Shown here: one piece after another, positions 46,614-53,176 of the stretch
Layout: every line of letters begins with the position of its first letter
How positions within the stretch are numbered: position 1 is the stretch's first letter
NCBI RefSeq assembly: GCF_028714775.1
Contig: NZ_JAQTLS010000025.1
Location: 1 to 53,176, forward strand
Source: Thiothrix sp.
GTDB taxonomy: Bacteria; Pseudomonadota; Gammaproteobacteria; Thiotrichales; Thiotrichaceae
Length of the DNA: 53,176 nt
Direction: 5' to 3'
Notes under the pieces: model-generated
Database searches by the model: none
What the model saw: the letters and a program-made list of their open reading frames with translations, nothing else
Told to the model about the DNA's origin: nothing
Made by a program: the position numbers and the translations under genes

Positions 46614-48899
46614 TTACGCCTGCAACATCCGCCGTGCCAACGCGACTTCAACACTGTCCCCGTTAGGGTTCAGCGAATCCAGCCCACTGTCCGGCATATC
46701 ACCCGAGGTGCTTTGGCTGACAGCGATCTTCTCCGCCATCAACGCCAAACACGCGGTTTGTGCCGTTTCTGCATAGCCAAGGTAGTAAACGTCAACGTCC
46801 AACCGCTGGCCAATCCGCCATGAGCGGCGGGCAGCTTGCTGGAGCGTATAAACATTGTACCCGGTCTGAAGGAACACAATTGCCGGGAACTCCAGCAAAT
46901 CCAGCCCCGTTTTCACCAGTTCAGGGTTACAAACCAGCACGTCGATACCACGGTCAACGCGGTCGAGTATCCAGTCCTCCCTTGTTTCAGTTGAAACGCT
47001 GGAGCGCAACACGTCGGTTTTCAAGCCTGCTGCGGACAGCAATACTTTGAGCCGTTGTGCGGTGTCCTGCTTGCCCGTGTAGCTGGTATACACCAGTACA
47101 CGCCGCCCTTTAGCCTTCTCTGACTTGCAAATCTCCAGCAGCTTTTGCTCCTTGGGGGTCAACTCATCAGCACCATACAGTTGCGGGACACTTGCCAGCA
47201 CCTCGCGTGTACGCGGGTGGTACACCGTCTCATCACGGAAACACGTTTCCGGCCAGCGCAACAAGGCATTCAGCACCACACCCAACAAGGTTGTGTCGCC
47301 TTTTGCCAACGCCTTCTTCATCACTTGGGTCAGTTCTTTCGAGAAGCCTTCGTAGGCATTGCGTTGTTCACCGTCCATCCCCACCTCAACGTAATGCTCC
47401 TTGTACGGTGGCAACACGTCCCCACCGATGTCCTTGAGTTTCAAAAACACCGTGTAAGGCAGGATGAAACGGCAAATGCCAGTCGGGCCGAAGCCCGGTG
47501 CTTTGGAGGTGCGCTGCGAGTCCTTTTCCCCGCGTGAGGTTTTATGGCTCCCGCCCGTTGTGCTTTTGAACACATCTTTGAGGATACCGTGGTCACGCAT
47601 GAAGCCCATCACCGCACCACCCAACGAGCGGTTACGGTATTTGTAGCCATCTTCGATCATACGGCGTGGGTTTGCCCGCCACAGCAGGTGGAACAGGTCA
47701 TCGGCATAGCCCCCCATCAGTGTGCCGGTCAGAAGGAGCACCTTGCGGGCTTTTGCTGCCAACACCCCGAAGGCTTGGCCTTGTGCAGAATCACCGTTCT
47801 TGAACTCATGTGCCTCATCAGTCACCAACAAGCTGAAATAACCATCGGGCAATTGCCGTTTGATAAACTCGGTTGGCTGGTAGCCGCCTTGCCCAAACGA
47901 AATCTCGGTCTTACCCAAGCTGCGTTCAATGCGTTCTGCCTGACGGTCATTGAAAACAAGTTGCCCGTTTTCATCCATCAAATTCACGAACTCATGGATA
48001 TTGTCAGACAACATGCTACCCAGCATTTCCTCACCAAACGTGTCAATCAGGCGTTGTGCCGTCTTGTCACCGATGGTGGGGAGTTGCTTTAGCGCGTCAG
48101 TGACCAGCTTACGCTGGCCTTTGAGTTGCCCCTTACGCACTAATGTCCACAGTTGTTCACCGCAGGCATGTTCCACGCCGTTATCATCAACGTGCTTGTG
48201 GTTGCAGGCCAGACGTTTGTCAGGCAAGCCCCGCTCAGAGCCGAAAACTTGGCCTTCTGCATCACGGTAAACCGTGCCGCATTTGGGGCAAGCCAACAAC
48301 TTACGGGCGTAAAACTCACCCGTTTCAGGAAAGCGCCCGCTGTCCAGCTTGTGGGCAAAGGCGTGCTTCCATTCATAGCCCATGCGCATCCGTACACGTC
48401 CCATGACGAAGTACTCAGGCGCATCATGGTTGCGCCCGGTTTTCACCATTTCACGCAATTGCAGCAGACGCGCCAAAGTGTCCGCACCGTTCAATACCCA
48501 AACGCGGGCATTGGGGACAGTATCCTTGATCTCACGCCGCCACTTGTAAACCAAGTGGGGAGGGCAGATGACCAAGGTGCGTGGGTAGCCTTCAGCCTGT
48601 GCCACCGCAGCAGTACAGATTGCTACCATGGTTTTACCCGTCCCCATCTCGCCGTTCATGATTGCGGCTTTTTCGCCCTGCCCGAACAGCAGTGCAGACA
48701 ATGCTTGGACAGCTTCACGCTGGGCAGGGAACGGCTTACGCAACAGCCCATCCATCACCGCATCGCGGGCCGGGCAGGCATTTTCCGGGTGGAAGATGGG
48801 CGGGTTTTGTTGGTCTACGGCATCACGCAAGGCAGTGCCGAAGTCTTTTACGAAGTCTGCCAAGGAAATGGCAGGGGTGGTATTGGCGATGGTAGTCAC
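46614..48899 (-). CDS. SNF2-like superfamily 2 helicase/translocase with zinc-finger insert
   Basis: Encodes 761 residues from GTG 48899, preceded by AAGGAGAAACACC. Motifs in order: Q-like FPAQREAVQAL, Walker A MNGEMGTGKTMVA (about residue 85), TLVICPPHLVYKWRREI, a zinc-finger insert (CPKCGTVY, then CNHKH and HACGEQ, residues 200-255), a helix-hairpin-helix-like TIGDKTAQRLIDTFG, Walker B VTDEAHEFK (about residue 362), LLLTGTLMGG, and the C-terminal lobe with VLVYTSYTGKQDTAQRL, ILVCNPELVKTGLDLLEF-like motif V, and QQAARRSWRIGQ (motif VI, about residue 695). It probably moves along double-stranded DNA. It shares its leader with the methyltransferase gene at 51263. Confidence 0.85.
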   Translation of the reverse strand: MTTIANTTPAISLADFVKDFGTALRDAVDQQNPPIFHPENACPARDAVMDGLLRKPFPAQREAVQALSALLFGQGEKAAIMNGEMGTGKTMVAICTAAVAQAEGYPRTLVICPPHLVYKWRREIKDTVPNARVWVLNGADTLARLLQLREMVKTGRNHDAPEYFVMGRVRMRMGYEWKHAFAHKLDSGRFPETGEFYARKLLACPKCGTVYRDAEGQVFGSERGLPDKRLACNHKHVDDNGVEHACGEQLWTLVRKGQLKGQRKLVTDALKQLPTIGDKTAQRLIDTFGEEMLGSMLSDNIHEFVNLMDENGQLVFNDRQAERIERSLGKTEISFGQGGYQPTEFIKRQLPDGYFSLLVTDEAHEFKNGDSAQGQAFGVLAAKARKVLLLTGTLMGGYADDLFHLLWRANPRRMIEDGYKYRNRSLGGAVMGFMRDHGILKDVFKSTTGGSHKTSRGEKDSQRTSKAPGFGPTGICRFILPYTVFLKLKDIGGDVLPPYKEHYVEVGMDGEQRNAYEGFSKELTQVMKKALAKGDTTLLGVVLNALLRWPETCFRDETVYHPRTREVLASVPQLYGADELTPKEQKLLEICKSEKAKGRRVLVYTSYTGKQDTAQRLKVLLSAAGLKTDVLRSSVSTETREDWILDRVDRGIDVLVCNPELVKTGLDLLEFPAIVFLQTGYNVYTLQQAARRSWRIGQRLDVDVYYLGYAETAQTACLALMAEKIAVSQSTSGDMPDSGLDSLNPNGDSVEVALARRMLQA

Positions 48900-48901
48900 G
48901 G

Positions 48902-48958
48902 TGTTTCTCCTTAAAGGGATATTTGGGGAGAAACATCCCCATGGGAGTGCATCTCCCA
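48902..48958 (-). promoter_or_regulatory. SD-sequestering leader element, copy A (helicase gene)
   Basis: On the - strand the helicase ribosome-binding site GGAGAAAC (48910-48903) is exactly complementary to GTTTCTCC (48934-48927), and one flanking pair extends it to 9 bp across a 16-nt loop. A second hairpin, GGGAG-N5-CTCCC (48957-48943), lies just upstream. If folded, the site would be hidden from ribosomes. Confidence 0.7.
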
Positions 48959-49197
48959 GAGGGTTAAAAATAAAAAAGGCAGTAAAAGTCCGGTAAGGGG
49001 CAAAGTGAAGTAAAAGTACACCACCAACACACCCGAAGGTGTGCCGCCCTGTGCTGGTGGCACGTCAGGGCTTTATAGGGTTTGCTGCAAAACCGTAAGG
49101 ATTGGCAGCTAGGGCGTGTTCAGGGTGGAACACTACACATAGGAAACCTTGCCGCCCGGCACTGGCTAACCAGTCACCGGCTGGCAAGGCCACCACA
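48959..49197 (-). promoter_or_regulatory. long structured leader, copy A
   Basis: Nearly identical to 52455-52704 apart from small indels. On the - strand it includes a UUCG-capped hairpin CACACC-TTCG-GGTGTG (49043-49028) inside an outer stem CCACCA/TGGTGG (49060-49055 with 49026-49021), a long pairing CCTTGCC/GGCAAGG near 49141-49191, and a T-rich tract (48966-48980). Homology with copy B ends abruptly at 49197/49198, in the middle of a further hairpin that is complete in B. Confidence 0.7.
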
Positions 49198-49424
49198 ATA
49201 ATTTGCCTAACTTCGTCTTTGTGCCGCATGTATGGCTTGGTTCAATTTTAGGAAAACTTGGCTACCAGTAGGTTGTTCGTCTGCTTGGGATAGCCGCCCA
49301 TCCTTTGGTACCCTACGTTAGGGGTGGGATTTGTATACTGGCGTTGCAAGGGAGTACGTGCTTGGCATGGATGCCTTCACTTTCTAAGAATCCTAAAAAT
49401 AACGCACCTGTAATGGAAAGCATC
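49198..49424. other. non-coding junction upstream of the pseudopilin gene
   Basis: About 225 bp that is not shared with leader copy B. It probably carries the promoter of the pseudopilin gene; TTGGTACCC and similar words are present but no consensus pair is convincing. This is the left side of the suspected insertion. Confidence 0.4.
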
Positions 49425-49994
49425 ATGGAAAATAAACAGCAAGGAATGACATTGGTCGAACTGATGGTCACACTGTCAGTGGTTGCCATACTGGCCTCTA
49501 TGGCTGTCCCCTCAATCAGCGGCATGATAGAAAGCAACCGCCTGACCGCCCTCAATAACCAAATCGTGTCCGCCATCAACTATACCCGTGGTGAAGCCGT
49601 CAAACGGCGCTATAATGCCGCCATGTGTGTACGCAACAGCAGCGGTTCTGGTTGTGCCACCTCCGGTAATTTTGACAGTGGGTGGATCGTGTTTGTCGAT
49701 TGCAACGCCAACAGCTTGGTTGACACCACCAACACCTGTGACCTTGATGGCAACGGTACGGCAGATGCGCCTGAAGCCATTTTGCAGGACAGTGTACCCA
49801 GTGCCACCAATGTTTCCATCACGGACAGCAGTTCGACCCCCCAGATGATCAACTACCTGCCCAATGGGAAAGTTTCCAATGCGGGCACTCTCCGCCTGAT
49901 AACCAGTTCCACCACCCGCTACAAGATCACAATGGATGCCTTTGTGGGGCGGGTAAGTTCTTGCAAAATAGGCAATCCGGGTTGTATATCCTGA
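49425..49994 (+). CDS. type IV pseudopilin, GspH/FimT family
   Basis: Encodes 189 residues from ATG 49425 (ATG 49413 is a close alternative). The class III signal QQG-MTLVELMVTLSVVAILASMAVPS is complete, with the PilD cleavage site after Gly and Glu at +5. The rest matches GspH/FimT minor pilins: RLTALNNQIVSAINYTRGEAVKRR, GWIVFVDCN, and a disulfide-capable Cys pair in the middle (CVRNSSGSGC). Minor pilins initiate pilus assembly for twitching or uptake. It is alone, on the opposite strand to the surrounding element genes, and flanked by broken leader copies. Confidence 0.88.
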   Translation: MENKQQGMTLVELMVTLSVVAILASMAVPSISGMIESNRLTALNNQIVSAINYTRGEAVKRRYNAAMCVRNSSGSGCATSGNFDSGWIVFVDCNANSLVDTTNTCDLDGNGTADAPEAILQDSVPSATNVSITDSSSTPQMINYLPNGKVSNAGTLRLITSSTTRYKITMDAFVGRVSSCKIGNPGCIS

Positions 49995-50007
49995 GTAAAT
50001 GAAGTCG

Positions 50008-50068
50008 CGTATCTCCAAAGTAAATTACGCCGGAGAAACACCACCCCGCAGGGAGTGATGCTCCCTGC
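50008..50068 (-). promoter_or_regulatory. orphan degenerate leader element, copy C
   Basis: On the - strand GTTTCTCC (50039-50032) faces GGAGATAC (50016-50009), one mismatch from the perfect pair seen in the other copies. The upstream hairpin is the longest of the set, GCAGGGAG-CATCA-CTCCCTGC (50068-50048). No gene follows in the expected place: the + strand pseudopilin gene begins there instead. Confidence 0.6.
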
Positions 50069-50091
50069 AAGGGCTGGTTAAGTTAAGTGGC

Positions 50092-50508
50092 TCAAGCGGT
50101 TAGGCACTCACCCAACTGTTCAATGTCCAAGCCATATTCCACGCCTTGGAACTTGCCACGCAAAGGGTAAAGGCTAGTGATTTCAACCAAATGGACTTCA
50201 TCAAGCCCATTGGCTTCATACCAATGCCCGACACGGGCATCACCAGCCGGGAACAGTTCGCTGAAAACTGCCAACCCTTTCCTGATAGGTTGATGGTAAG
50301 TAGGCCATTGGTCGTAGAGGAAAAACGTAGAAAATGAGCCATTGGTGACTTCAAACAGCCATTGGTTCCAACGTTGTTTAAGCACAGTTTGCCCCCTCAA
50401 TTTACGGACACGTAAACCGCTTTCACGGTGTACCGCCCACTCATGGTCGGCCAATACGATGGTTTCATCCAACGCAGTGGGTTCAGCATTCCAATGTTCA
50501 GGTTTCAT
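50092..50508 (-). CDS. unknown protein, last gene of methyltransferase operon
   Basis: Encodes 138 residues from ATG 50508, overlapping the upstream stop by 4 bp. No domain is recognised. Soluble and acidic, with aromatic-rich phrases (DHEWAVHRESGLRVRKL, WNQWLFEVTNGSFSTFFLYDQWPTYH) that suggest a compact alpha/beta fold. The three small genes 51175-50092 form a coupled chain after the methyltransferase gene, so it probably belongs to the same system. Confidence 0.6.
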   Translation of the reverse strand: MKPEHWNAEPTALDETIVLADHEWAVHRESGLRVRKLRGQTVLKQRWNQWLFEVTNGSFSTFFLYDQWPTYHQPIRKGLAVFSELFPAGDARVGHWYEANGLDEVHLVEITSLYPLRGKFQGVEYGLDIEQLGECLTA

Positions 50509-50798
50509 GCAACACCCCCTTGCTTACGCTTTTTCCGGTAAAACGGGTCACAGCGGGCAAGTCCCGCCCGTGTCAGCGTGTAATACGCTTCCCCGTCGGT
50601 AACGGCATCGGTTTTGTGTTCGACCAAGAATTGCAGGAGACGGTCGCTTTCCGCCCTTGAAAGGTTTGTGCCTTCAACGGTTTCCTGCCAAAAATCCCAG
50701 AAATCCTGCGGGTCAGCACTGGGGAGATGATCCATTGGGACTGCCTGAAACTGGTATGTGACACCTACGAATGTGGTGATGGTGATTGCCGCACTCAT
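50505..50798 (-). CDS. unknown small protein with winged-helix-like C-terminus
   Basis: Encodes 97 residues from ATG 50798. The first 25 residues are beta-like; the remainder (SRAESDRLLQFLVEHKTDAVTDGEAYYTLTRAGLARCD) looks like a winged-helix with a basic tail (YRKKRKQGG). It may bind nucleic acid; no family is recognised. ATGA overlaps exist at both ends, so it is translated with its neighbours. Confidence 0.6.
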   Translation of the reverse strand: MSAAITITTFVGVTYQFQAVPMDHLPSADPQDFWDFWQETVEGTNLSRAESDRLLQFLVEHKTDAVTDGEAYYTLTRAGLARCDPFYRKKRKQGGVA

Positions 50799-51175
50799 GC
50801 TTCACCCCCTTGAACCAGAAAATACTGGCTTTCGGTGATGGCACTGTCCGGCAACATCCGCCACAAGGTATCCAGATAGGACACGATGAAATCATCGCGG
50901 CCTATCAGGGAGTTGGCATCCCAATCCTCCAATATCTCCATATTGCATTGGAAGACGTGCGATCCGAAGACCAACACTGCCCTACCAACATCAACGATGG
51001 ATGTGCCACTCAAGTCACATTTGCCAACTGCCTCAGTTGTCCAAAGCGGCTGGTCGGGTTGGTAATTGAGTAAGCCACCCAACACAGTGTTGGTGGATAC
51101 CCCATCCCTGTTAAAGACAAACAGGCGTTTAAAGTTGCCATCTTGGGCAACGGCTGCCCGGTATTGGTGATTCAT
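50795..51175 (-). CDS. unknown protein with its own SD-sequestering leader
   Basis: Encodes 126 residues from ATG 51175, whose ribosome-binding site GGAGAAAC lies 4 bp upstream and is part of leader copy D. No domain is recognised; it is acidic and soluble, with a central segment (LDTLWRMLPDSAITESQYFLVQGG) near the C-terminus that looks helical. A single Cys pair (KCDLS, QCNME) is present. It is the only gene of the trio with the regulated leader, so the leader may set the level of all three through coupling. Confidence 0.6.
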   Translation of the reverse strand: MNHQYRAAVAQDGNFKRLFVFNRDGVSTNTVLGGLLNYQPDQPLWTTEAVGKCDLSGTSIVDVGRAVLVFGSHVFQCNMEILEDWDANSLIGRDDFIVSYLDTLWRMLPDSAITESQYFLVQGGEA

Positions 51176-51177
51176 GA

Positions 51178-51237
51178 TGTTTCTCCAAAAGTAAAAGCAC
51201 ACCGGAGAAACACCACCCGCAGGGAGTGATGCTCCCC
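51178..51237 (-). promoter_or_regulatory. SD-sequestering leader element, copy D
   Basis: On the - strand GTTTCTCC (51211-51204) pairs with the ribosome-binding site GGAGAAAC (51186-51179), with an extra flanking pair and a 17-nt loop. The adjacent hairpin is GGGAG-CATCA-CTCCC (51236-51222). It lies between the methyltransferase stop and the next gene, without the long structured block. Confidence 0.7.
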
Positions 51238-51262
51238 AGCAGGGTTGGCCGAACGTTAAAAA

Positions 51263-52396
51263 TCACCGGATCATCAGCATGTCCCCGTAGGTAGGGCTGT
51301 TGGGGGTGAAGTCGAGGGCGCGGATCACCGGCACGAACACGTCAGTGTCGATGCGTTCTTCCGTTTGTGAGCCATCAAGGTTTTCATGGATGCGGGTTTC
51401 AGTGCGTTTTTCTTTGTGCGTGCTGCCCTTGATCAGGTACACACGCCCATCGTCGGAACGCACCACACCACCCACTTGCCCTGCGGCAAGTGCCAATGCC
51501 GTGTGCCACCCCGTCATCTGGCGCAGTGGTCGGCGGTTGGCTTGGGCAGCAGCCTGCTGGAACAACCCGGTAAACTGCTGTTCCAGCGCACCTTGGTGCT
51601 TGGCAAGCTCCTGTTGCAGTTGCGCCGCATCCAAGGATGCCGCAGCAAACTTGAATGGGCGGCGGGTCTCAGGCACGGCAGGGACGGTATAAGGCTGGAA
51701 AAACCACGTTTCAGGCAGTTCGTCTGGCACAACATCACCCACCCCAATAGCCAGCAGGTGCTGGCGCAAAGCGGTGTCAATATTGCCATTACTGCGCTGC
51801 TTGATGCCAAACAGCACGGTTTGCTTGAACTTGTTGGTGGCAGCGCAGAATACCTTCACTTCCCGGAAATGGGTGGCAACCCAAGCCGACAATTGCTTGT
51901 CGTAACTGGTTGAGGGCAGGATCAGCACCATCACACCACCAACCTGTAACAGGCCGTGGGTGCGTTGGTAAAAGTGCTTTTCCAAGCGCGGGCGGCTGTC
52001 CTTGAACAGGCCGTTTGCGCCATTGCCTTCATCGTCTTTCACCATATCCCCGTAAGGCGGGTTCAGCCACAGTAGGCCAAATGAGCCGGGGGACACAACG
52101 CAGCCATTGAAATCACCGTGGATACAGTGATCCAGCACGGTTTTAGCGTGCCAAGCGCGTTCAGCGTCATATTCAATGCCGAAGGCAACGGTACTGTCTT
52201 TGCCCAATGCGTGTTTGCATTCAGCCAGCGCCACACCTTCACCCGCGCACGGGTCAATGATGCGCAGTTGGCCTGCCCCATCCTCTGACGCAACAAGTGC
52301 GGACAAGGTGCGGGCAATGGTCACATCATCAGTGGGGTAGTAACCGTTTTTGATAAAGTTTTGCGCAAGGCGCGGGAACATAAGTGCTTTAGCCAT
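51263..52396 (-). CDS. adenine-specific DNA methyltransferase (NPPY type; DUF6094-like)
   Basis: Encodes 377 residues from ATG 52396, with GGAGAAAC directly before it; the frame upstream to 52432 is leader. The SAM site is RIIDPCAGEGVALAE (about residue 47), and the catalytic motif IV is LLWLNPPYGDM (about residue 112), typical of N6-adenine enzymes. A later segment (VGGVMVLILPSTSYDKQL) fits motif VI. The C-terminal 150 residues are not a known recognition domain. It probably modifies DNA of the mobile element. It is paired with the SNF2-like helicase at 46614 by an almost identical leader. The combination of helicase and adenine methylase is reminiscent of the DarB proteins of phage P1. Confidence 0.8.
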   Translation of the reverse strand: MAKALMFPRLAQNFIKNGYYPTDDVTIARTLSALVASEDGAGQLRIIDPCAGEGVALAECKHALGKDSTVAFGIEYDAERAWHAKTVLDHCIHGDFNGCVVSPGSFGLLWLNPPYGDMVKDDEGNGANGLFKDSRPRLEKHFYQRTHGLLQVGGVMVLILPSTSYDKQLSAWVATHFREVKVFCAATNKFKQTVLFGIKQRSNGNIDTALRQHLLAIGVGDVVPDELPETWFFQPYTVPAVPETRRPFKFAAASLDAAQLQQELAKHQGALEQQFTGLFQQAAAQANRRPLRQMTGWHTALALAAGQVGGVVRSDDGRVYLIKGSTHKEKRTETRIHENLDGSQTEERIDTDVFVPVIRALDFTPNSPTYGDMLMIR

Positions 52397-52399
52397 GAT

Positions 52400-52454
52400 A
52401 GTTTCTCCTGAAATGGATTTGGGGAGAAACATCCCCGTGGGAGTGGTTCTCCCA
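52400..52454 (-). promoter_or_regulatory. SD-sequestering leader element, copy B (methyltransferase gene)
   Basis: On the - strand GTTTCTCC (52430-52423) pairs perfectly with the ribosome-binding site GGAGAAAC (52408-52401) over a 14-nt loop. The second hairpin is GGGAG-N5-CTCCC (52453-52439), with a loop sequence different from copy A. Both arms of both stems are conserved while loops vary. Confidence 0.7.
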
Positions 52455-52720
52455 GAGGGTTAAAAATAAAAAAGGCAGTAAAAGCCCGTGAGGGCGAAGT
52501 GAAGTAAAAGTACACCACCAACATACCCGAAGGTATGCCGCCCTGTGCTGGTGGCACGTCAGGGCTTTATAGGGTTTGCTGCAAAACCGTAAGGTTTGGC
52601 AGCTAGGGCGTGTTCAGGGTGGAACACTACACATAGGAAACCTTGCCGCCCGGCACTGGCACGCCCATTGCGCACGAGTCACCGGCTGGCAAGGCCACCA
52701 CACCCGAAGGTGTGGTTAAT
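52455..52720 (-). promoter_or_regulatory. long structured leader, copy B
   Basis: Partner of 48959-49197. On the - strand it has CATACC-TTCG-GGTATG (52537-52522), where copy A has CACACC/GGTGTG: the third pair is changed on both sides, a compensatory change. GCCC-TCAC-GGGC (near 52493-52482) is followed by a T-rich tract and could act as a weak terminator; in copy A this stem has one mismatch. A second UUCG hairpin, CCACACC-TTCG-GGTGTGG (52715-52698), is complete only in this copy. An 18-bp insertion after GGCACTGGC distinguishes it from A. Confidence 0.7.
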
Positions 52721-52735
52721 GCCCAATGTTAGGTG

Positions 52736-52799
52736 CAAGTGGGCAAAAGCCCACTTGGCAACCAACCGCGCCTACAGTACGGAGCAGTAGGCTGGTTGG
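52736..52799. other. two adjacent perfect hairpins between unknown gene and leader B
   Basis: CAAGTGGGC-AAAA-GCCCACTTG (52736-52757) and CCAACC/GCCTAC pairing with GTAGGC/GGTTGG (52762-52799, 12 pairs around an 11-nt loop). No T-run follows on the - strand, so they are probably not simple terminators. They may be part of the leader RNA or processing sites. Confidence 0.5.
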
Positions 52800-52857
52800 G
52801 TCATTGCGATTGTAACACTGACCGCGCAGCTTCTGCATTCAGCGGCATTCAGCGGCA

Positions 52858-53176
52858 TCAGGCCAACATACGTCGGCTTTCAGCTTTGCCATTGACGCCG
52901 TGGTGCAGGCGCACGCGGGAACCCGCATCCAAGCCAGCTTGGACGCTATCGGCATCCAGATGGTTAGCCTTGCGCGGCTTGTGGCTTCCCAGTTTGCCGT
53001 ACTTCTGCGCCATCCAATTTTTTATGTCTTGGTCTGGTGCGGGTGCGGAAAATTCACGGACAGCCACTGCCACATTGTGCAGCCAGCCTTCCACAAAGGA
53101 GGCCGTTGCCTTACGGGCATCCTCCCGCGCCCACTGGAAGCGGTGTCCATGAAGTTCAGCGTCCCACGCCGGGTCG
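52858..53176 (-). CDS. unknown protein, C-terminal part (5' end outside the window); possibly DUF2786-like
   Basis: The frame is open to the window end and gives the last 105 residues before TAG/TAA-type stop at 52858. The visible part contains WAREDARKATASFVEGWLH and, near its end, KANHLDADSVQAGLDAGSRV followed by RLHHGVNG. The ending (a helix, then G.D.G.RV.LH..V) resembles the C-termini of DUF2786 proteins common on conjugative elements, but this is weak evidence. It is probably the gene upstream of leader B in the same direction. Confidence 0.45.
   Translation of the reverse strand, partial: DPAWDAELHGHRFQWAREDARKATASFVEGWLHNVAVAVREFSAPAPDQDIKNWMAQKYGKLGSHKPRKANHLDADSVQAGLDAGSRVRLHHGVNGKAESRRMLA

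Follow-up and report, generated by a model that had tools for sequence, protein, structure and literature searches.

We propose, with a probability of roughly 0.6, that an element repeated on the minus strand of a 53,176-nt stretch of Thiothrix DNA (the window) serves as a translational leader able to adopt either of two folds, each of which rules out the other. On the mRNA strand the order of its parts would be a1-b1-b2-SD. The first fold, the predicted ground state, would pair a1 with b1 (P1) and b2 with the SD (P2), closing the ribosome site. The second would pair a1 with b2, which uses up b2 and leaves the SD without a partner. What is new here is a fit of b2 to its own a1 as well, with no corresponding fit between a1 and the SD. 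This second role of b2, as a partner of a1, the 5' strand of the P1 hairpin, was absent from an earlier, sequence-only reading of the window, as were the outer CCC/GGG stem of that hairpin and the structured stretch of ~220 nt upstream.

Leaders in the Thiothrix element and its relatives

The element that the window lies on carries transfer genes of the F type. The four minus-strand elements with a common layout that the sequence-only reading had described are real (Table 1): the upstream hairpin, with its outer CCC/GGG stem, is present in 4/4 copies, and GTTTCTCC-N-GGAGAAAC is found three times, always serving a minus-strand gene, compared with a mean of 0.00 matches in 100 dinucleotide shuffles of the window, none of which reached three. 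As that reading had it, the arms are perfect in the three copies with a gene, where the SD arm lies 3-4 nt from the start codon; the fourth carries GGAGATAC, with one mismatch, and is geneless. The genes that it named, a helicase, a DNA methyltransferase (here assigned to DUF6094) and an unknown protein (here 126 aa), are likewise there; searched at E<=0.001, the last matches nothing in Pfam or NCBIfam. Folding-energy z scores against shuffles are -3.9 for the methyltransferase leader (52394-52461), -6.5 for that of the 126-aa gene (51173-51245), -4.7 for the orphan (50000-50078) and -3.9 for the helicase leader (48897-48965). Behind the orphan leader, the place of the gene is taken by a plus-strand reading frame, which we take to be pilin-like from its N-terminal motif.

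Table 1. Leaders, their genes and upstream modules in the window.
Feature	Positions	Strand	Basis or remark
Helicase leader, P1 hairpin	48937..48963	-	predicted fold; outer CCC/GGG stem, inner GGGAG/CTCCC stem; 5' strand is a1
Helicase leader, b2 arm GTTTCTCC	48927..48934	-	arm pattern and fold
Helicase leader, SD arm GGAGAAAC	48903..48910	-	arm pattern and fold
Helicase leader, whole P2	48903-48934	-	loop 16 nt
SNF2/DEAD-type helicase gene, 761 aa	46614..48899	-	GTG start at 48899
Helicase leader, upstream structured module	48975..49198	-	place taken by radC RNA in some relatives
Orphan leader, P1 hairpin	50048..50068	-	predicted fold
Orphan leader, P2: GTTTCTCC, loop 15, GGAGATAC	50009..50039	-	one mismatch; no gene behind
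126-aa gene leader, P1 hairpin	51216..51243	-	predicted fold
126-aa gene leader, P2: GTTTCTCC, loop 17, GGAGAAAC	51179..51211	-	arm pattern and fold
126-aa gene	50795..51175	-	ATG start at 51175
Methyltransferase leader, P1 hairpin	52433..52459	-	predicted fold
Methyltransferase leader, P2: GTTTCTCC, loop 14, GGAGAAAC	52401..52430	-	arm pattern and fold
DUF6094 methyltransferase gene, 377 aa	51263..52396	-	ATG start at 52396
Methyltransferase leader, upstream structured module	52471..52703	-	structure and conservation

Perfect GTTTCTCC/GGAGAAAC copies number 11 in the same Thiothrix genome (0 for the reversed-pattern control), and three further genomes of the genus have another 18 between them. 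Both the helicase and the methyltransferase are members of a gene block common to many conjugative elements, pKLC102 among them, and composed of STY4534, DUF3275, DUF6094, the helicase and small unknown genes; DUF6094 was matched in 4/398 genomes of the phylum, its own genome counted in. The layout of P1 (strands a1:b1), b2 arm and SD is found in most genes of this block. Leaders were seen in alpha-, beta- and gammaproteobacteria, a Rhizobium plasmid included, with taxon counts of arm-pattern matches standing as at-least values among the matches listed. The viral contig L261 also carries real leaders; the other listed viral-contig matches of the bare arm pattern before reading frames lack P1, and we regard them as due to chance or as unrelated. 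In the relatives, arm sequences differ from gene to gene, even within one element. GTTTCTCC was dropped as a defining feature because relatives use other arms, and a sequence-specific repressor reading the arms is unlikely for the same reason.

The SD-covering helix is conserved by covariation

We compared own with cross duplex energies of the arms, permuting partners. In 80 block genes (12 loci, 10 plasmids), b2 pairs more favourably with its own SD than with the SDs of other genes (z -7.8, 0/20000 permutations), while 97 other genes of those 10 plasmids gave z -0.6; these are 80/92 block genes and 97/135 others, the remainder being without a recognisable SD, and the 12 loci exclude the Tistrella region (L268), which has no annotation. 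A strict definition of P1 is satisfied by 47/80 block genes and 0/97 others, and a looser rule by 73/80 and 35/97. For strict-P1 leaders permuted within plasmids, z was -7.1 for b2:SD, -6.9 for a1:b2 and -0.3 for a1:SD. The result was replicated in five further loci that had not been used in the design of the test (b2:SD -3.8, a1:b2 -8.0, a1:SD +0.4), with 42 ORF-based candidates that include spurious reading frames and one candidate also in the scan set (L282/L125 overlap). A pooled set of 166 leaders below 62% identity, drawn from 273, gave -8.7 for b2:SD and -15.9 for a1:b2, with control pairs at 0.2 (a1:SD) and -0.3 (b1:SD). The helix covering the SD is thus conserved by covariation in each of these four tests.

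Sequestration of the SD in an RNA helix, claimed by the sequence-only reading, is therefore supported by computation, through relatives with other arms and their own-versus-cross energies. Its argument that the window's arms themselves reveal selection on both sides did not stand: within the GTTTCTCC family (40 sequences) both arms are nearly invariant, with two-sided change at 1/11 predicted pairs, so that this family alone fails to show pairing under selection. The opposite case, an SD that is kept while the upstream arm varies freely, is not what the relatives show: there the arm changes with its SD context. A whole-family MAFFT alignment was not used for counts, as it misplaces b2 where two extra bases precede the arm.

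A predicted second pairing on the same arm

The a1:b2 pairing, mutually exclusive with P2, is also under selection. It exceeds all permutations in 4/4 sets, within plasmids or loci, persists after similar leaders are removed, and is stronger than b2:SD in the pooled 166. On b2, the two helices overlap by a median of 0.86 (80 leaders measured), and the leader thus encodes two exclusive folds. Set against partners of equal GC, the own partner falls in the top 10% in 22% of leaders for b2:SD and in 43% for a1:b2; the effect is one of averages, not of every leader. Reversed b2, as a control partner for a1 in the pooled set, itself gave z -4.4; local composition therefore accounts for some of the a1:b2 signal. 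In 685 kb of ordinary genome loci, 80 candidates permuted by GC class gave -2.3 for b2:SD and -1.2 for a1:b2; these loci had also been picked out by the arm pattern, a possible cause of the -2.3, and they exclude L070, which carries real leaders and with which the values become -2.9 and -3.2.

Selection of loci bears on the two pairings differently. Exact arms were the means of finding the scan set (22 genome-contig loci plus viral contig L261) and the Thiothrix set, which makes the b2:SD result of both partly a product of selection; the a1:b2 result of these sets, and the plasmid sets, are free of arm-based selection. L286, close to L263, was left out, as were the V. parahaemolyticus, V. owensii and V. 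campbellii plasmids among the matches.

In folding predictions, the closed fold is the energy minimum of full-length RNA in 75-86%. For RNA ending before the SD, a1:b2 is predicted in 49-70%, versus 11-18% with swapped b2. Within the window, the truncated leader of the 126-aa gene is predicted to fold as a1:b2 with 12 pairs; P1 is still the minimum before the SD in 2/3 leaders with a gene, the two folds being near balance, and the a1:b2 duplex is worth -13.0 kcal/mol in the helicase leader and -11.8 kcal/mol in the methyltransferase leader. It takes 6-7.5 kcal/mol (a difference of medians) to keep the SD open, so fold 2 in full-length mRNA would need a trigger or slow strand exchange. When b1 is held free in full-length RNA, the SD core is free in just 2-9% of leaders; in the model, loss of P1 is not by itself enough to open the site.

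The predominance of the closed ground state makes P2 the simplest reading, and a static attenuator would need nothing else: P2 would keep translation low and insulated from upstream genes, P1 would be a stabilising or insulating hairpin, and a1:b2 would have no role. The compositional share of the a1:b2 signal and the rarity with which a free b1 frees the SD core fit this account. We nevertheless consider it unlikely, given an a1:b2 signal that no permutation equals in any set, that outlasts the removal of similar leaders and outdoes b2:SD in the pooled leaders, and that is weak in candidates from ordinary loci.

Upstream RNA modules

The helicase and methyltransferase copies are preceded by a further conserved and structured stretch of ~220 nt, of which 169 nt are 98% identical between the two. 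Two-sided changes occur at 19/35 pairs of this Thiothrix module. In relatives its place can be held by radC RNA (RF01754): 17/17 distinct radC matches in the scanned loci stand ~10-45 nt before a P1-type hairpin in the same direction, counting once a match shared by two loci (L282, L125) that have 2 kb of one contig in common. These loci were selected for leader or block, so 17/17 does not give the frequency of P1 behind radC RNA elsewhere. The single STAXI match (RF01728) in these loci is upstream of a Citrobacter leader, just before its P1 hairpin. For radC RNA, whose covariance model asks for more than 40 bits, and for STAXI, the window has no match at the gathering score, and 48000-53176 has none to radC RNA even at E<=5. 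No Rfam family covers the leader, either in the window or in relatives, where radC matches fall upstream of it. The claim that no motif of this form had been described thus holds for the leader itself and fails for its surroundings, since radC and STAXI lie directly upstream in some relatives.

These associations make it a real possibility, if not the one we expect, that the system is operated by a ligand or protein, with radC, STAXI or the Thiothrix module sensing and the P1/P2 leader acting as an expression platform in which b2 is shifted between a1 and the SD. Against this stand the prior choice of the scanned loci, the presence of radC in only 5/16 and 4/9 loci carrying leader or block, and the leader at 51211, which starts ~20 nt behind the preceding gene's stop codon and has no room for a module. 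Some loci also have the leader without radC, and radC-type modules precede some copies only. That arms differ between genes of one element makes a factor reading P1/P2 by sequence unlikely. Where they are present, radC, STAXI or the Thiothrix module are the likeliest sensors; many copies have none.

Proposed mechanism

In the two-fold leader that we favour, fold 2 could form during transcription before the SD exists, and the ribosome site may therefore be born open. The site would then close as P1 and P2 take over, which would limit translation to transcripts just made, or to conditions holding a1:b2. That fold 2 would permit translation in the cell, that the two folds would act in this order in time, and what would bias fold 2 are inferred.

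An early a1:b2 hairpin could act on transcription instead, as an intrinsic terminator or pause hairpin together with a U-rich tract, with P1 as antiterminator. A run of at least five T follows a1:b2 in 11/34 scan-set leaders, 8/11 of them in Pasteurellaceae. Such a tract directly after the alternative hairpin, as an intrinsic terminator would have, is enriched in 0/3 other sets relative to shuffled loops (runs in 2/19, 0/9 and 3/34), and the window copies are absent from the T-run leaders. With b1 in its long loop, the hairpin should also terminate weakly. This makes such attenuation improbable. A still smaller chance attaches to an RNA thermometer in which temperature melts P2: the short AU/GC helix over the SD and its U-rich arm recall, in outline, the fourU class, but a thermometer has no need of the conserved alternative partner of b2. 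Control by CsrA/RsmA through GGA sites was dropped, because a1 often lacks GGA and the Rhizobium plasmid has leaders while many Rhizobiales are not known to have CsrA.

An inverted repeat might also work as DNA, as an operator or as a folded single-stranded promoter or priming site in transfer (Frpo type). The block genes look like those for replication, anti-restriction and other accessory functions of conjugative elements, whose leading regions have known single-strand promoters; these Frpo/ssi sites act on early genes and, as outlined in PMC11541004, are promoters at the DNA level, with -35 and -10 boxes, rather than RNA hairpins that cover an SD. The loops here range from 12 to 28 nt, the repeat ends in an SD a few bases before a start codon, and 48500-53176 holds one promoter-like match, below the shuffle mean of 2.8. 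Mismatches on the mRNA strand are more often G.T (78) than A.C (23), partly through SD composition, with 26 versus 16 for b2:SD alone. We regard a DNA-level role as highly improbable.

Relation to known systems

In ermC-type attenuators and riboswitch platforms, two hairpins are present, the second holds the SD and an alternative pairing frees it, as proposed for the leader described here. The ermC leader pairs strands 2:3, driven by a leader peptide, whereas here strands 1:3 pair and an unsystematic look at the window copies noticed no leader peptide; the present leader also recurs in front of many genes of one element, in a sequence particular to each gene. For the AapA3 type I toxin mRNA, folding order during transcription has been proposed to decide SD exposure; its transient hairpins, as summarised in PMC6733600, hide the SD, whereas the leader's transient fold would free it. 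No toxin or antisense RNA was seen at the leaders. Like the leader, radC RNA is a cis-regulatory RNA of Proteobacteria, directly upstream of the P1 hairpin; unlike the leader, its Rfam model ends before P1. STAXI RNA occurs near DNA-handling genes and consists, in the description given in PMC2864571, of repeated pseudoknots rather than two hairpins.

Taken further, and tentatively, since we think it somewhat unlikely as a whole, the two-fold leader would be a gene-by-gene RNA timer in conjugative elements across Proteobacteria: born open while a1 holds b2 and closed by strand exchange, it would let establishment-block proteins be made only from fresh transcripts, for example just after entry into a new cell. 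Its sequence would be free as long as a1, b2 and SD match, and radC-type RNAs would add sensing to some copies.

Control of translation through two exclusive folds is known from leaders taken singly; here it seems to be what usually precedes the genes of a block, and a single small RNA device may govern translation throughout a block of transfer-associated genes. The leader may also supply the downstream half of radC RNA. Such a device would give a rule for predicting regulated genes of conjugative elements and would offer natural strand-exchange switches with free sequence. The functions of the block are little known, and a shared switch would tie it into one regulon, which could be tested with simple reporters.

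Leaders in the window and their spread

The sequence-only reading had described a family of - strand leaders of one layout, and that layout proved common to the copies: a hairpin (P1, strands a1 and b1), an arm (b2), a loop, an arm holding the Shine-Dalgarno site (SD) and a start codon. The underlying inverted repeat, GTTTCTCC-N-GGAGAAAC, occurs exactly three times in the window (none expected by chance), each time 3-4 nt ahead of the start codon of a long - strand reading frame; the fourth copy has one mismatch and no gene behind it. Fold energies of all four lie well below those of shuffles (z -3.9, -6.5, -4.7 and -3.9). The gene's expected place behind this orphan copy is occupied, on the opposite strand, by a frame that we take to be pilin-like from its N-terminal motif, and a leader with a similar loop on contig G000:C23 precedes a 180-aa gene.

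The window carries genes of an F-type transfer system (TraU, TrbC, TraN, TraK, TrbI, TraC) and encodes a DUF6094 methyltransferase and an SNF2-type helicase. Exact copies number 11 in its own genome, on three contigs; of 57 genomes searched, this one and three of the same genus hold them (11, 4, 5 and 9) and the other 53 do not. Under a looser script, at least 87 distinct leaders had P1, b2 and SD, 49 of them in Thiothrix and 38 in 24 pattern-scan loci; hosts outside the genus include, among the matches listed, Pseudomonas, Stutzerimonas, Citrobacter, Kushneria, Pasteurellaceae, one Thiotrichales bin and one Methylothermaceae bin.

Genes served by the leader

Matches (tblastn) to the methyltransferase and helicase were found in 62 and 88 plasmid records, respectively. 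We sampled regions with this gene block from Enterobacter, Stutzerimonas, Comamonas, Shewanella, Nitrogeniibacter, Pseudomonas veronii, Tistrella, Aliivibrio, Rhizobium, Paraburkholderia and Vibrio, where the neighbours are STY4534/DUF3577, DUF3275, DUF932 and small unknown genes. After genes without a clear SD were dropped (12 of 92 block genes, 38 of 135 others), a loose rule placed a P1-like hairpin ahead of 73/80 block genes versus 35/97 other genes of the same plasmids, and a strict rule ahead of 47/80 versus 0/97, transfer genes included. The arm behind P1 matches the gene's own SD context, its letters varying from gene to gene. Besides the helicase and methyltransferase, the families served are STY4534/DUF3577, DUF3275, DUF3560, DUF2786 with DUF7168, and DUF6573, together with a protein with an ArdC N-terminal anti-restriction domain on a viral-collection contig (L261); several tested proteins had no match in the family search.

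Two pairings of one arm

Across the 80 block genes, the b2 region pairs with its own SD region at a mean of -10.78 kcal/mol versus -8.89 with those of others (z -7.8, 0/20000 permutations; negative z means that the own partner fits better), and the 97 other genes give z -0.6. The signal persists (z -7.1) under strict P1 with sequence through the outer stem removed and partners permuted within plasmid. The same arm also fits the hairpin: in 47 leaders the b2 region, paired with the 5' strand plus loop of its own P1, gives -13.0, versus -9.71 within plasmid (z -6.9). Stem strand and loop of P1 each contribute. In these 47 strict-P1 leaders, within plasmid, a1:SD (-0.3) and b1:b2 (0.1) show nothing; b1:SD gives -3.3, which vanishes in a larger set of 166 (-0.3).

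Further sets, with leaders called from reading frames rather than annotation and all z within locus, gave b2:SD and a1:b2 values of -6.7 and -8.3 (design loci), -3.8 (3/20000) and -8.0 (five loci outside the test design, including pKLC102), -5.9 and -6.2 (Thiothrix) and -7.1 and -9.9 (scan set). Pooled and thinned to 166 of 273 leaders (<62% identity), they give -8.7 and -15.9, with a1:SD at 0.2 and reversed-b2 controls at -4.4 with a1 and -1.7 with SD; in 90 genome loci (685 kb) that lack the leader family, 80 candidates yield -2.3 and -1.2. Taken one by one, leaders give a less clear picture, with the own partner ranking among the best 10% in 22% (b2:SD) and 43% (a1:b2). The earlier proposal that the SD is sequestered in a helix is supported by computation, b2 fitting its own SD across different arm sequences (z -7.8, -7.1, -3.8, -8.7). 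On b2 the two helices overlap at a median 86% of positions (80 leaders, each helix reaching -8 kcal/mol), and selection on both folds is well supported.

In full-length leaders the predicted minimum contains b2:SD in 75-86%, and an SD held open would cost 6-7.5 kcal/mol. Keeping b1 free lets a1:b2 form in 27-50%, the core of the SD being free in only 2-9%. For RNA ending before the SD, the predicted minimum has a1:b2 in 49-70% and P1 in 29-52%, versus 11-18% and 76-88% when b2 is swapped between leaders. In the window, the truncated leader of the 126-aa gene favours a1:b2; for the methyltransferase and helicase leaders the minimum is still P1, the ensemble near balance. From these predictions, the nascent leader would tend to keep b2 off the SD and the finished leader would give b2 to it.

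Ungapped duplexes, symmetrically scored, contain 78 G.T versus 23 A.C mismatches, split 52:7 in a1:b2 and 26:16 in b2:SD alone; the a1:b2 excess could reflect the need for b2 to match the A in GGAG where a1 has G. Position over the SD, variable loops and gene-specific arms point to an element that acts as RNA.

Upstream modules

The radC RNA is in the candidate table of Weinberg and colleagues (PMC2864571), who make the case that STAXI functions as RNA and not as DNA. Rfam found radC 12 times in 16 scan loci, 6 times in 9 block loci and not in 7 further loci, 17 distinct sites because one was counted in both overlapping loci L125 and L282. In these loci, picked for leader or block, each of the 17 has a P1-type hairpin in the same direction within about 10-45 nt downstream, and a leader likewise follows the sole STAXI match. 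An SD and start codon lie behind 16 of the 17; in the exception, radC and P1 are present and the gene is apparently lost. Ahead of radC, a promoter-like TTGACA-N17-CATTCT pair and a terminator-like hairpin were seen by eye in L136 and L125, suggesting one-gene transcription units there.

Ahead of some Thiothrix leaders, another module occupies radC's place. RNAalifold on 19 aligned copies predicts 35 pairs, with two-sided changes at 19, and many copies have a UUCG-capped stem; neither window copy matched Rfam.

Other matches to the repeat

Among the matches listed, Burkholderia relatives, Pseudomonas chlororaphis, Stenotrophomonas and others have a gene whose SD is covered by GTTTCTCC...GGAGAAAC; the hairpin ahead is a different one, of GGCCCCGCC type. 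The gene is isochorismatase-domain in both loci tested (L033, L062), Rfam had no match in seven loci scanned, and this is apparently an independent SD-hiding leader. In gut Clostridia and one Paludibacteraceae bin, again among the matches listed, the repeat repeatedly abuts a small gene's start codon (DUF6809 in the one tested, L061). A near-identical stretch with GTTTCTCC...GGAGAAAC ahead of a shared reading frame in several proteobacterial contigs is perhaps a mobile element, and nine listed matches in two Xenorhabdus genomes look like a dispersed short repeat.

Features located in the window and in sampled loci (L numbers)
Feature	Location	Strand	Remark
Orphan leader, arms and loop	window 50009-50039	-	
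Pilin-like frame	window 49305-49994	+	
Leader with similar loop	L006:8120		
Thiothrix upstream module	window 48975-49198, 52471-52703	-	about 220 nt, conserved, structured
Further module copies	L005, L006, L019, L020, L022, L023		
radC and P1, gene apparently lost	L136:6337		
Promoter-like pair, terminator-like hairpin	L136 4480-4560; L125 5770-5810, 6900-6940		
GGCCCCGCC-hairpin loci	L028, L033, L037, L048, L057, L058, L062, L068, L080, L089, L105, L119, L120, L132, L133		
Gut Clostridia/Paludibacteraceae small-gene loci	L059, L061, L071, L086, L091, L093		
Shared proteobacterial stretch	L026, L029, L032, L038, L053		
Xenorhabdus loci	L031, L034, L046, L051, L055, L098, L135, L137, L141		

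Significance

A literature search that covered few subscription papers found no description of the leader. It is a widespread RNA of two folds, with a ground state that is predicted to keep the SD closed. Candidate readings of what it does are a timer, a ligand switch and a protein switch.
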